A stretch of DNA of 64,000 nt from Massilia forsythiae (lineage in GTDB: Bacteria; Pseudomonadota; Gammaproteobacteria; Burkholderiales; Burkholderiaceae_D), in assembly GCF_012849555.1 (NCBI RefSeq), contig NZ_CP051685.1, positions 62,001-126,000 on the forward strand, given 5' to 3'. Shown in pieces: positions 9,428 to 48,425 of the stretch. Both the position numbers and the translations under genes were made by a program. Within the stretch, counting starts at the first letter, position 1; the number at the start of each line of letters is the position of its first letter. Under the pieces are notes generated by a model. That model was given only the letters and a program-made list of their open reading frames with translations. It ran no database searches and was not told the DNA's origin.

Positions 9428-9503
9428 GGGTCGTTAGCTCAGCTGGTAGAGCAGCGGACTTTTAATCCGTTGGTCGCAGGTTCGAATCCCGCACGGCCTA
9501 CCA
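9428..9503 (+). tRNA. tRNA-Lys (anticodon UUU)
   Basis: The 76-nt cloverleaf starts GGGTCGT and ends ACGGCCT-A-CCA, with the CCA encoded. The acceptor stem pairs fully if G-U pairs are allowed. The anticodon loop ACTTTTAAT gives UUU, and the T arm has the usual GGTTCGAATCC. It has its own perfect promoter and terminator. Confidence 0.97.
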
Positions 9504-10090: not shown

Positions 10091-11317
10091 TTACTCTCGA
10101 CATGCACCGCTTGTCGCCGGCTCCGCCGCCTTGCGCAGGCACACCGACAGACTCGACGTGCTCGGGTTATCGACGAACAGGCAGCGCTTGCCGTTGCGCT
10201 TGCAGAAATCCTTGACGCGCCAATACGCCTGGTGGCTGATGCAGCCGGTCTGGCAGATCACCAGATCGGCCGCGGCCAGGCTGGTGTCGAGCAGTTCGCT
10301 GGCCTGTTCCAGGCCGCCGTCGTGGTGCATGAAGCGCGCCCCTTCCCGCTCCAGCAGTTCGCGGTAGTTGGGGACGTTGCCGCTGCGCCCGCCCACGCAC
10401 AACACGGTCTTGTCGACCAGGGCTGGCGCCTCCACCGCCGCTGCCGGCACCGCGGTCGCAGGGGGCGCCGCCATTGCCGCCGCGGCGACCGCCGCCGCAT
10501 CCTGGCGTGCGCGCGCCGCCGCCTGCTGGCGCAGCTGCATCAATTCCAGCGCCAGCTTCTGCTCGCGCTCCTGCGCTTCGTCGGCACGGCGCTTCAGCCT
10601 TTCGCGGTCACGCATGTCCGGTAGGGTTGCGGTCAAGGCTTCCAGGCGCTCCTGCAGGGCTTCGATGGCGACGTCGCGTGCGGCCAGTTCGGCGCGCAGG
10701 CCGGCCAGCTGCTCGGCCAGGCGCAGCGCTTCCTTGCCCTTGGCGTCGGCGGCGCGCGCCGTCTTGTCGCGCGTCTGTTCGAGTTCGCGGCTCAAGCCGG
10801 CGCACTGCTTCTGCAATTCGGCGAAACGGGTCAGGTCGACGCGGGCGCTGGCGCCGGCCTGGTGCTGGATCATGTGCATGTCGCGCACCGCCGCTTCGAT
10901 CATCGGCATGTCGCAGCGCGGATGGGTCAGCGTGGCCCAGAAGGCGCCGGCAACGTCGCCGCGCTCGACCGCCTGGCGCCATGCGGCCTGGACCGCCTGC
11001 GCGTCGCGCAGCGTGCGGAACTGGCGCAGCACGGCGGCAAAACGTTCGTCCAGCGTGCGCTGCAGCAGTTCGGACAGCTTGTTCCTGGTGGCGCATTCGT
11101 GCACGGCCCAGACATGGACGTCGTAGTCGTCGCCCTCCACGGGGCGCACCACCACCTTGTTCACCAGGCGGCGTAGCAGCGCCAGCGGCAGGCACACGCC
11201 GATCAGTGGGCAGTGGCAATTGGTGGGCAATTCCCACAAGCGCCGGCGGCGCGAGCCGGCGGATTCGTCGAGGGCGTCGGGATGGGCGAAATGGGGTTTC
11301 TTGTCGTGGTCACACAT
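10091..11317 (-). CDS. DUF2325 protein, Fur-controlled operon
   Basis: A 408-residue protein of unknown function. The N-terminal part (about 25-130) carries a CHC...C cluster (C34, C36, C42) in PTNCHCPLIGVCLPLALL and a helical segment. A charged coiled coil spans about 170-270, followed by an Ala/Pro linker. The C-terminal DUF2325 domain (about 305-398) begins KTVLCVGGRSGNVPNY, a Rossmann-like nucleotide-binding or metal-sensing fold, and has further cysteines in ICQTGCISHQAYW and FCKRNGKRC. It starts 12 bp after the small cysteine protein and shares its Fur-overlapped promoter. A role under iron starvation is inferred from the operator only. Confidence 0.85.
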   Translation of the reverse strand: MCDHDKKPHFAHPDALDESAGSRRRRLWELPTNCHCPLIGVCLPLALLRRLVNKVVVRPVEGDDYDVHVWAVHECATRNKLSELLQRTLDERFAAVLRQFRTLRDAQAVQAAWRQAVERGDVAGAFWATLTHPRCDMPMIEAAVRDMHMIQHQAGASARVDLTRFAELQKQCAGLSRELEQTRDKTARAADAKGKEALRLAEQLAGLRAELAARDVAIEALQERLEALTATLPDMRDRERLKRRADEAQEREQKLALELMQLRQQAAARARQDAAAVAAAAMAAPPATAVPAAAVEAPALVDKTVLCVGGRSGNVPNYRELLEREGARFMHHDGGLEQASELLDTSLAAADLVICQTGCISHQAYWRVKDFCKRNGKRCLFVDNPSTSSLSVCLRKAAEPATSGACRE

Positions 11318-11329
11318 GGGCGTTTCCGT

Positions 11330-11566
11330 TCAGTGCAGCGGCAGGCCGGCCGCGCGGTCCTTGCTCAGGCGCGCCTGGGCATCGTCGAGCAGGCGTTGCG
11401 CCTTGCCGACCAGGGCGCTCAGTTCGCGCAGCTCTTCCAGCTTGAGGCGCAGGGACAGGTTCGGCAGGGCCAGGTGGATGGCGCCGCAGTCGGGGCAGCC
11501 CAGCACGCGTCCCGCACTGCCGGAGGCAAGGACGACGCAATTGCAGGTGGAATGGGAAGCGGTCAT
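11330..11566 (-). CDS. Small CxC/CxxC protein, first gene of Fur operon
   Basis: A 78-residue protein. C8, C10, C24 and C27 form a CxC...CxxC pattern like a zinc ribbon or small metal knuckle, followed by a helix of about 40 residues (37-70) rich in Leu, Arg and Glu. The ATG at 11566 is preceded by CGGAG. It is 12 bp upstream of the DUF2325 gene, so the two are almost certainly cotranscribed and may interact. I do not recognise a named family. Confidence 0.75.
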   Translation of the reverse strand: MTASHSTCNCVVLASGSAGRVLGCPDCGAIHLALPNLSLRLKLEELRELSALVGKAQRLLDDAQARLSKDRAAGLPLH

Positions 11567-11594
11567 GACCGGGCTCCGGTGTCGAGATGCTTTT

Positions 11595-11641
11595 AATGTA
11601 TCGCAGTTTTCTTTTCATGTAAATGCGAATCATTCTCATTT
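11595..11641 (-). promoter_or_regulatory. Fur box overlapping promoter of DUF2325 operon
   Basis: Read on the minus strand, AATGAGAATGATTCGCATT matches 12 of 15 core Fur positions (TGATAATCATTATCA) by eye. It runs into TTTACA (complement of 11618-11623), which lies 17 bp from TACATT (complement of 11595-11600), a reasonable -35/-10 pair. Fur-Fe(II) bound here would block RNA polymerase. The 26 bases 11616-11641 differ at one position from 48400-48425, upstream of the Fiu-type receptor. Confidence 0.85.
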
Positions 11642-11851: not shown

Positions 11852-12865
11852 ATGCCCCTGGACCTCTCCGACACCCTCGTGGTCGGCATATCCGCCACCG
11901 CCCTGTTCGATCTCGCCGACGCCGATGCCGTCTATAAAGCCAGGCATGCGAAGAACCCGCACGGTGCGCTCGACGACTACCGTGCCTACATGCTCGAACG
12001 CGAAAACGAGCCGCTGCGCGACGGCACCGGCATGGCGCTGGTACGCGCCCTGCTCGGCCTGAACCGGTATGCGCCGTCGGAATCGCGGCCGCTGGTCGAG
12101 GTCGTCGTGATGTCGCGCAACAGTCCGGAGACCGGGATGCGCGTCTTCAACAATATCCGTTCGCGCGGCTTGCCGATCGCGCGCCACGCCTTCACAGGCG
12201 GGCGCTCGGTGGTCGATTACCTGGATGCGTTCGCGGTCGACCTGTTCCTTACTACCAACGTCGAGGATGCCCAACGCGTCATCGATGCCCAGGCCGCCGC
12301 CGCCGCGGTATTGAAGCCGCCGCCCGGCAGTTGCGACGCGCCGGAAGACCAGGTACGCATCGCCTTCGACGGCGACGCGGTGCTGTTCGACGATTCCAGC
12401 GAACTGGTCTACAAGACCGAAGGACTGGACCGTTTCCATACGATCGAAAACGAGCGCCAGAAGGAGCCGATGAACGATGGCCCATACGCCATCCTGCTAC
12501 GCAAGCTGGCGCGCCTGCAGGAACGCCTGCCGTTCGGCGCCGACCTCTCGCCGGTGCGCATCGCCATCGTCACCGCGCGCAGCGCCCCGGCCGAGATGCG
12601 CGTCATTAACACCCTGCGCCACTGGGGCGTGTACGTGAACGAAATCTTCTTCCTGGGGGGGGTGCAGAAATCGAAGGTGGTCAAGGCGTTCCGGCCGCAT
12701 ATCTTCTTCGACGACCAGGATTTGCACCTGGATCCGGCGGCCAAGCACGTACCGGCCGGGCGCGTCCCCTACCGTTCCGATTCGCCGCTGTACACGCCGG
12801 TTACGGCCGCGCTCGACCTGGCCGCCGAACCGCCGCTGCTGGTCGACAAGCTGGACGCGACCTGA
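11852..12865 (+). CDS. 5'-nucleotidase (cytosolic NT5C1-like)
   Basis: A 337-residue protein of the 5'-nucleotidase family related to eukaryotic cytosolic 5'-nucleotidase I, which dephosphorylates AMP and related mononucleotides. Family stretches are VVGISATALFDLADAD near the N terminus, MSRNSPETGMRVFNNIRSRGL, RIAFDGDAVLFDDSSE (the DGD acid motif, about 168-183) and FFDDQDLH near the C terminus. It is a single gene, divergent from the Fur operon, with the start at 11852 shortly after the intergenic region. Substrate preference is an inference from the family. Confidence 0.88.
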   Translation: MPLDLSDTLVVGISATALFDLADADAVYKARHAKNPHGALDDYRAYMLERENEPLRDGTGMALVRALLGLNRYAPSESRPLVEVVVMSRNSPETGMRVFNNIRSRGLPIARHAFTGGRSVVDYLDAFAVDLFLTTNVEDAQRVIDAQAAAAAVLKPPPGSCDAPEDQVRIAFDGDAVLFDDSSELVYKTEGLDRFHTIENERQKEPMNDGPYAILLRKLARLQERLPFGADLSPVRIAIVTARSAPAEMRVINTLRHWGVYVNEIFFLGGVQKSKVVKAFRPHIFFDDQDLHLDPAAKHVPAGRVPYRSDSPLYTPVTAALDLAAEPPLLVDKLDAT

Positions 12866-14682: not shown

Positions 14683-15837
14683 TCAGCGTGTCTTCCAATA
14701 ACGCCGCGCACCGCCGCGGCGCCAGCCCAGCAGCAGCCCACCCAGCAACAAGGCATACGCGGCCGGTTCCGGCACTGCCGGCACCAGGTCGAGCCGCACT
14801 GCCTGGCACACGTCGCCCCGGCACGCGGTCGCAGCGATCTGCTGCAGGTCGTTGATGGCGGCGGCATCCTGGATCACCCAGCCCGATTCCGGATCGATCA
14901 GGACGTTCAGGTCGACCATCGCACCGTTCTCGTACAGGAACCCATGGGACAAGAAATCGCCCAGACCTGCACTGCCTACGATTTGTCCCAGGTTGTTGAT
15001 ATCGTACGCGGCGCTGCTCCACAGGGGGGACGGTCCACCAAGGTTGCGCATGACACCGTTCTCGTATAGAAAAGCGGTGGACGGGTAGATGTCGTCCGGG
15101 TTGACGTTGGAATCGGTGCCGAGATAGCCGACGATCTGGCCGTGGTCATTGATCGACCTGGCAGTGCTCCAGGGGCCACCCAGATTGCCCAGGCTGGTCA
15201 TCGTGCCGTCACGGTACAAAAACGGGTCGTGAGGAAAATTGGGGGCGCCGTTGAACACATTGCCGGCCGCTCCCACGACGTCGCCTGTATTGTTGATGGC
15301 ATACGCATAACTGAAGTCGCCGATCGGCAGCGTACCGAGGTCGGTGAAGACGCCATTGGTATAGGTATAGGCATGGTCATGCGTCACATCTCCAGGCTTT
15401 CCGACTGTCATCGCACCCACGACCGTTCCGTTGTTGTTTATCCCGTAAGCAAAGGAATTCCCCGTTTCCCGGATCGCGCTCATGCTGCCGCCGCTATAGA
15501 CGAAGCCGGTGAAACCCCTCCACGGTCCGTTGGTGGGCGTGTCGAAAGCCGAACCTGCCACTTGTCCATGATCGTTGATCGCATAGGCATGGCTGTCGGT
15601 GCCGCCAAAAGTACCGAGGTCCGTCAGGTCGCCATTGGTATATACGAACGCGTGATAGCTGTCGCCAGACCGCAGCGATCCCACCACTTGGCCAAGATTG
15701 TTCAAGTCGCTCACATTGCTGCCGGCACCGGCTACTTCGGTAACGGTATATCGTACATCGGCGTTGGCAAGCAAAGGCGCGGCAAGCGAAACCGCGGCAA
15801 GCAATTGCATGTAATGCAGTAGGGAAAAGCGATTCAT
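14683..15837 (-). CDS. PEP-CTERM secreted protein with HAF repeats
   Basis: A 384-residue exported protein. Residues 1-26 form a signal peptide. The body consists of repeats of the HAF type, each with a core like AYAINDHGQVAG or ARSINDHGQIVG, giving at least six copies and suggesting a beta-propeller. The C terminus has a PEP-CTERM sorting signal: VPEP, a hydrophobic helix (YALLLGGLLLGW) and an Arg-rich tail, recognised by exosortase A. The ATG at 15837 is preceded by GGAGG. Lower GC in the middle of the gene than in its neighbours may hint at faster evolution or transfer. Function is unknown; an extracellular matrix role is plausible. Confidence 0.9.
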   Translation of the reverse strand: MNRFSLLHYMQLLAAVSLAAPLLANADVRYTVTEVAGAGSNVSDLNNLGQVVGSLRSGDSYHAFVYTNGDLTDLGTFGGTDSHAYAINDHGQVAGSAFDTPTNGPWRGFTGFVYSGGSMSAIRETGNSFAYGINNNGTVVGAMTVGKPGDVTHDHAYTYTNGVFTDLGTLPIGDFSYAYAINNTGDVVGAAGNVFNGAPNFPHDPFLYRDGTMTSLGNLGGPWSTARSINDHGQIVGYLGTDSNVNPDDIYPSTAFLYENGVMRNLGGPSPLWSSAAYDINNLGQIVGSAGLGDFLSHGFLYENGAMVDLNVLIDPESGWVIQDAAAINDLQQIAATACRGDVCQAVRLDLVPAVPEPAAYALLLGGLLLGWRRGGARRYWKTR

Positions 15838-16128
15838 GGAAACCTCCGGTGGGTGAAAAAAAGCTATGTAAGCAGCATAGGCTGGCTCGACCCTCTGGTG
15901 CTGAGCATGCTCACGAACCCGCACTGAATCATGTCGCGGGAGCCCGTGCCATGCTCGCCTTGGAACACGCTCGATAGCGTCAGGAAATGAATATTGACGG
16001 CATGAATGCTCCGCGTAAGCGTCTTCCTACACCATTGTTTTGTTTACGTTTTCTGGAGGAATCGTGCGCGGCTCTCCCGTCGAATCCGTCTATGATGAAG
16101 TCATGTCAATTTCACAAATGGGCGGGTG

Positions 16129-48378: not shown

Positions 48379-48425
48379 CTTTAACAAGAATTTATCTCCA
48401 TGTAAACGCGAATCATTCTCATTTT
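48379..48425 (-). promoter_or_regulatory. Fur box overlapping promoter of the Fiu-type receptor gene
   Basis: Minus-strand AATGAGAATGATTCGCG leads into TTTACA (complement of 48402-48407), 17 bp from TAAAGT (complement of 48379-48384). The layout is the same as at 11595-11641, and the 26 bases 48400-48425 differ there at one position only. Iron-loaded Fur should repress the gene. Confidence 0.88.

Follow-up and report, generated by a model that had tools for sequence, protein, structure and literature searches.

A Fur-linked gene pair in Massilia forsythiae encodes a three-part DUF2325 protein with a candidate role in heme or iron handling

The gene pair lies in a 64,000-nucleotide stretch of the Massilia forsythiae genome, here called the window, and consists of two minus-strand open reading frames separated, as the sequence-only reading had it, by a gap of 12 bp. 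The upstream gene (11330–11566) encodes a small cysteine-bearing protein of 78 residues and the downstream gene (10091–11317) a protein of 408 residues, which combines a helical N-terminal domain, a predicted coiled coil and a DUF2325 domain. A Fur-type palindrome, AAATGAGAATGATTCGCATTT in the minus-strand reading, occupies positions 11621–11641 and is defined by a genome-wide palindrome scan and by its conservation in relatives; the Fur box AATGAGAATGATTCGCATTT corresponds to positions 11621–11640. A promoter-like site on the same strand as the genes, TTTACA-17-TACATT (11595–11623), is assigned from its consensus match only and is the sole such match between 10000 and 11850, where shuffled sequences yield a mean of 0.1. 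Its −35 element, TTTACA (11623–11618), shares three nucleotides with the end of the palindrome, in agreement with the earlier placement of the −35 at the Fur box, and the pair has a Fur-type palindrome at its promoter. A divergent 5′-nucleotidase gene (PF06189) begins at 11852. Elsewhere in the window, a tRNA-Lys gene (anticodon TTT; 9428–9503, plus strand) is situated between the Tol-Pal region and the gene pair, and a 413-residue open reading frame (14683–15924, minus strand) ends in VPEPAAYALLLGGLLLGWRR, a terminus that we take to resemble a PEP-CTERM signal.

When up to three mismatches are allowed, a scan of the window returns the 11621 site, on both strands, and a site at 48404–48423 with one mismatch; 100 shuffled sequences return none. 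This second Fur-type palindrome (48404–48424) is a comparison site outside the operon and precedes a TonB receptor gene (Plug domain) at about 48.4 kb. The claim that the operator of the pair is nearly identical to that of a receptor gene therefore stands. At the scale of the whole genome (6.37 Mb), a search for the 21-bp palindrome AAATGAGAATSATTCTCATTT with up to three mismatches identifies 12 sites, compared with none for the reversed palindrome used as a control. The site at 11621–11641 ranks first among the 12 and is the only one with a single mismatch to AAATGAGAATSATTCTCATTT. Nine of the other 11 are found ahead of TonB receptor genes with a Plug domain (five sites), feoAB, a PepSY-type gene, a gene for a PKHD-type 2OG hydroxylase, presumably PiuC-like, and a 173-residue open reading frame followed by a superoxide dismutase gene. 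The remaining two precede a truncated DUF2325 gene of 197 residues and a homologue of a small open reading frame, ORF110, so that members of the DUF2325-pair set account for three of the 12 best sites. The truncated gene (C1:2980937–2981530; L155, 845–1438, minus strand), whose own palindrome has two mismatches, retains the C355-C359-H362-C372 half of the domain and lacks HHDGG. The ORF110 homologue (129 residues; L160, 1555–1944) has its own Fur-type palindrome at C1:2654633–2654653 and gives no Pfam or NCBIfam match; in relatives, ORF110 is located between hemP and the DUF2325 gene.

The palindrome also recurs ahead of relatives of the large protein. Across 145 Oxalobacteraceae genomes there are 48 matches at E ≤ 0.001, 32 of which are near full length as judged from the table of matches; in all of the 30 loci examined among these 32, a palindrome matching at least 17 of 21 positions occurs within 1.3 kb upstream, and none of 300 simulated sequences of equal composition reaches 16 of 21. 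A second set comprises the best 80 of 396 relatives in named genomes, mostly Oxalobacteraceae and Comamonadaceae, whose counts are inflated by near-copies. With L048 left out as too short, 71 of the 79 testable loci of this set score at least 16 of 21 within 1.1 kb, compared with 1 of 395 simulated sequences and 15 of 294 control regions. Of these 15 control regions, 13 are found in front of a PepSY-type gene belonging to a neighbouring string, one precedes an untyped open reading frame and one has no called open reading frame nearby. The neighbouring string, composed of flavodoxin-type reductase and PepSY-type genes and convergent to the DUF2325 gene at about +1.3 to +5.8 kb, is present in L066, L075, L084, L088 and other Janthinobacterium, Duganella and Pseudoduganella loci.

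More distant palindromes are found at −1434 in L049 (19 of 21) and at −1535 in L110 (18 of 21), and about 7.9–8.9 kb upstream in four Undibacterium loci (L053, L055, L059, L061) and a Rhodoferax MAG (L063), with scores of 18–20 of 21. In the last five loci the palindrome precedes a large open reading frame heading a gene string that ends in the DUF2325 gene; judging from gene spacing, each string is probably a single transcript. Once the heads of gene strings are counted, 78 of the 79 testable loci from the best 80 of 396 have a palindrome; the exception, L083, is truncated by a contig end, and no site at up to three mismatches occurs in its 2.9-Mb assembly. Both genes of the pair are recognised in 20 named loci from the same best 80 of 396, and none of these presents the pair without a Fur box: the palindrome is within 1.1 kb in 16, and in the other four it heads a heme-uptake gene string terminating in the pair.

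In 369 genomes of the class, the family profile gives 23 matches. The distant full-length loci (L126–L143), of which 17 of 18 are testable since the upstream side of L141 is at a contig end, score at least 15 of 21 in 15 cases and at least 16 in 12, whereas 640 simulated sequences (32 loci) reach at least 15 in 16 cases and at least 16 in one; L144, L145, L147, L179 and L181–L186, in which the gene was not recognised by pattern, are left out of the scoring of distant loci. L126 and L142 have no palindrome upstream and adjoin imelysin and bacterioferritin genes. An Azospirillum relative with H331 and C355 (L211) has a palindrome of 17 of 21, with exbB, exbD and tonB about 5 kb away. Two shorter kinds of relative were also seen. 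Five short stand-alone DUF2325 genes with HHDGG (L174–L178, from genomes of one other family, f219) run against the pattern, with palindrome scores of only 12–13 of 21, and may be under another regulator. L146 and L147 (genomes G334 and G439) are N-domain relatives in frames of 342–362 residues, in which DUF2325 was not recognised; their best upstream palindromes score 17 of 21. Taken together, the box, the scarcity of such sites in the genome, the genes that the other sites precede, and the palindromes ahead of relatives strongly support Fur control of the operon, as firmly as sequence alone allows, and at that level bear out the iron control proposed earlier. From this we infer that Fur binds the site and represses the operon in the cell.

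The genes surrounding iron-type loci, whose kinds are assigned by Pfam searches of representatives, include hemP, hmuRSTUV-chaN and bacterioferritin. Among the best 80 of 396 named loci, the HemP motif (Pfam-checked in three sequences) occurs in the same string in 45; ferritin-type genes adjoin 12, seven downstream and five upstream with no overlap; and ChaN-type, FecCD and imelysin genes are beside seven, five and three, respectively. The Undibacterium string before DUF2325 reads receptor-HemS-binding protein-FecCD-ABC-VOC-ChaN, and representatives of the string genes are recognised as TonB receptor (L196), HemS, periplasmic binding protein, ABC ATPase, glyoxalase-type protein, FecCD and ChaN. 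A Bfd-type gene is upstream of L134. The M. forsythiae genome itself gives no PF10636 match, and hemP was not found in it. This genome context, and this only, narrows the earlier range of zinc, heme, iron-sulfur or nucleotide handling towards iron and heme.

The large protein is a member of PF10087 (82.4 bits against a cut-off of 33.6), with the DUF2325 domain at residues 305–396 (10130–10405, minus strand). Its His/Cys-rich N-domain (residues 21–160; 10838–11257, minus strand) yields a confident structure model for which structure comparison found no match in the PDB, and long helices at residues 137–280 (10478–10909, minus strand) are predicted to form a coiled coil, in line with matches of coiled-coil type. 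C34, C36 and C42, which had been noted before, are confirmed at these positions in the translation, and the DUF2325 domain contributes HHDGG (331–335), C355, C359, H362 and C372. Comparison of 126 full-length relatives, after exclusion of 9 of 135 loci outside the residue pattern (L045, L048, L069, L073, L078, L116, L124, L168 and L173), shows no variation in H152, H332, D333, H362 and C372; substitutions at C36, H68, H132, H148 and C359 are each confined to one or two sequences. The DUF2325 domain displays a receiver-like α/β arrangement; a Foldseek search gives no match at E ≤ 0.001, and comparable scores go to TIR and deoxyribosyltransferase folds. We propose that the domain may be of Rossmann/receiver type. 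It differs from response-regulator receiver domains in that its third strand carries no phospho-acceptor Asp at its end; the strand at 352–356 runs into C355-Q-T-G-C359, and distant relatives of the protein have an Asp at position 358.

These features bear on whether the large protein could act as a secondary regulator within the iron response, made together with HemP, in which the N-domain binds RNA or DNA and the DUF2325 domain senses a metal or small molecule. HemP, HmuP and ChuP (PF10636) are Fur-controlled small proteins whose genes open many of the strings that contain the DUF2325 gene, and passages of two reports describe them as regulators of heme uptake, HemP acting on heme-receptor genes (PMC9131926, PMC9241770). 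The frequency of the HemP motif given above (45 of the 80), the conserved basic RRR-LW at the start of the N-domain and the receiver-like arrangement of DUF2325 would suit such a role. Pfam and NCBIfam, however, match no known nucleic-acid-binding domain in the proteins of the pair, the N-domain model is without a PDB counterpart, and the invariant His/Cys set exceeds what a regulator of this kind would need; we consider this explanation rather unlikely.

The small protein has no Pfam match above the cut-off and no NCBIfam match. PF10636, the HemP/HmuP family, is absent from the four Pfam families retrieved at E ≤ 0.1, and the small protein and HemP co-occur in three named loci. The cysteines C8, C10, C24 and C27 are where the sequence-only reading had put them, yet in 18 aligned sequences only C8, C24 and C27 are invariant while C10 varies; H31, which had gone unmentioned, is invariant as well. 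C8, C24, C27 and H31 form a conserved pattern of paired Cys/His ligands of the ribbon kind, as far as pattern goes, and we assume that the C-x2-C-x3-H motif resembles a zinc ribbon. Only 12 of the 145 Oxalobacteraceae genomes contain the small protein. Eleven of these also match the large one (in G010 there are two pieces only), with the genes adjacent in nine of the 11; in G025 a contig end adjoins the small gene. Since the reverse does not hold, dependence seems to run one way, with the small protein relying on the large one. Where the small gene is apart or at an edge (L038, L041, L044), it has its own palindrome of 18, 20 and 20 of 21. Among the best 80 of 396 named loci, the small Cys protein is in the string in 17, and a broader pattern also picks up L047, L062 and L120. 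The notion of a Fur-linked pair holds in that both genes stand behind the box, but it is the large protein that recurs throughout, and its partner varies between the small protein, HemP with another small open reading frame, and neither.

A point of comparison from the literature is Cj1384c of Campylobacter jejuni, which the available excerpts of three reports describe as a stand-alone DUF2325 protein of 104 residues with seven cysteines (PMC4491227, PMC3815106, PMC9426514); two of them place it in the iron-limitation response, with raised expression in a fur mutant and a Fur motif (PMC4491227, PMC3815106). By description only, it resembles the large protein in its DUF2325 domain, its many cysteines and its upstream Fur motif (PMC4491227, PMC3815106). 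It differs, in the same excerpts, by lacking the N-domain and coiled coil, by its position beside katA and by additional control through PerR and RacRS, and it was the top induced gene in killing light (PMC9426514). Given this control and induction, a role in oxidative stress fits Cj1384c as well (PMC9426514). By analogy, the large protein might shield or repair iron or heme centres where iron control meets peroxide stress, with its cysteines serving as redox groups and not as ligands. The katA neighbourhood, joint PerR and Fur control and light induction of Cj1384c, as given in these excerpts (PMC4491227, PMC3815106, PMC9426514), speak for this, as does the palindrome ahead of the open reading frame preceding superoxide dismutase, one of the 12 sites in the genome. 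The neighbours observed are nonetheless chiefly heme-uptake and iron-storage genes, and invariant His and Asp next to the Cys residues suggest ligands; we regard a protective role as improbable. The literature retrieved on DUF2325, seen in excerpts, contains no account of a protein joining a long N-domain to DUF2325, one Ensifer gene being named without its build, and PF10087 and UPF0751 go unmentioned; titles and abstract openings on hemP and the Fur regulon in the bacterial family of the host say nothing of the large protein.

Handling or sensing of heme or iron is, from sequence evidence, the most likely function of the large protein. In the mechanism that we favour, the operon would be repressed by Fur and turned on at iron exhaustion, probably as a single transcript. 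The large protein would be the iron-type member of a three-part family, probably cytosolic and dimerised by its long coiled coil, and would most likely bind heme or ferrous iron derived from heme import or bacterioferritin, acting as a sensor or handler of what it binds. H331, H332, D333, C355, C359 and H362 are the proposed ligands in DUF2325, and C36, H68, H132, H148 and H152 those in the N-domain; the small protein may be a metal-ribbon partner through C8, C24, C27 and H31. To this mechanism as a whole we assign an even chance. Fur regulons are well mapped, so a family in which almost every iron-type locus tested bears a Fur-type site, and which is encoded close to hemP, hmuRSTUV, chaN and bacterioferritin, marks a gap in iron biology, and the pair has the appearance of an undescribed component of the bacterial response to iron shortage.

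The most novel point of the analysis is a split between iron- and molybdenum-associated members of the family. In a comparison of 48 relatives, from which L168 was left out, nine have V, L, I, S or T at position 331 together with F at 355. None of the nine has a palindrome of at least 15 of 21 within 1.1 kb (best score 13), in contrast to 32 of 37 relatives with H331 and C355; in the other five of the 37, the palindrome is distant (L053, L110) or lacking (L126, L142), or the locus has no upstream DNA (L141). Two relatives with Y331, L133 and L173, both have a palindrome, and L133 keeps it despite having F355 also, contrary to the rule; L139 lacks C359. Because the nine form one clade in a quick tree (SH-aLRT 96; one change accounts for the label), the link between the palindrome and residues 331/355 may rest on a single event.

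Molybdenum genes adjoin seven of these nine loci. The neighbour of L172 encodes a ModE-like protein, whose score of 94.5 bits for TIGR00637 falls slightly short of the cut-off of 98.5. According to deposited annotations, the neighbours are modABC and Glp in L215, modA in L214, Glp in L213, NifQ and a molybdopterin enzyme in L212, and XdhC and a molybdopterin enzyme in L216; no molybdenum gene was recognised in the flanking stretches examined for L169 and L171. Matches occur in 34 plasmid records, six of which had their neighbourhood examined. The molybdenum-linked proteins, namely the paralogue in M. forsythiae itself and those of Methylorubrum, Aureimonas, Rhizobium, Shinella and Caballeronia plasmids, have the same three-part build as the large protein of the window and share with it the N-domain residues and H332, D333, H362 and C372. 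They differ at 331 and 355, in having no palindrome and in their neighbours. The absence of the palindrome and the molybdenum neighbours in the clade without H331 and C355 suggest that the identity of these residues tracks the metal served. The same observation tells against an explanation in which structural zinc is held by both Cys sets and the large protein serves as a scaffold whose fold persists under iron shortage. The zinc-ribbon-like C-x2-C-x3-H pattern of the small protein would agree with zinc, and the small protein by itself may bind it, but we consider zinc in both proteins decidedly improbable.

To return to a role in metal status, it is possible, and we put it forward tentatively, that proteins with an N-domain and DUF2325 form an undescribed metal-status class with a new N-terminal fold. 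Their metal would be set largely by residues 331 and 355, His/Cys for iron under Fur and a hydrophobic or small residue with Phe for molybdenum near ModE-like genes, with one copy of each in such bacteria. The molybdenum-linked clade offers a built-in comparison, at these two residues, for what the DUF2325 pocket recognises, and the answer would bear also on Cj1384c, which is highly iron-responsive in Campylobacter in the excerpts cited above. The paralogue of M. forsythiae, on C1 near 485 kb (L165, 5114–6484, minus strand), is full length, has L331 and F355, lacks a palindrome and adjoins genes for a Mop protein (TIGR00638, 2.7e-41) and a molybdopterin-binding protein, so that this genome carries one iron-type and one molybdenum-type full-length copy.
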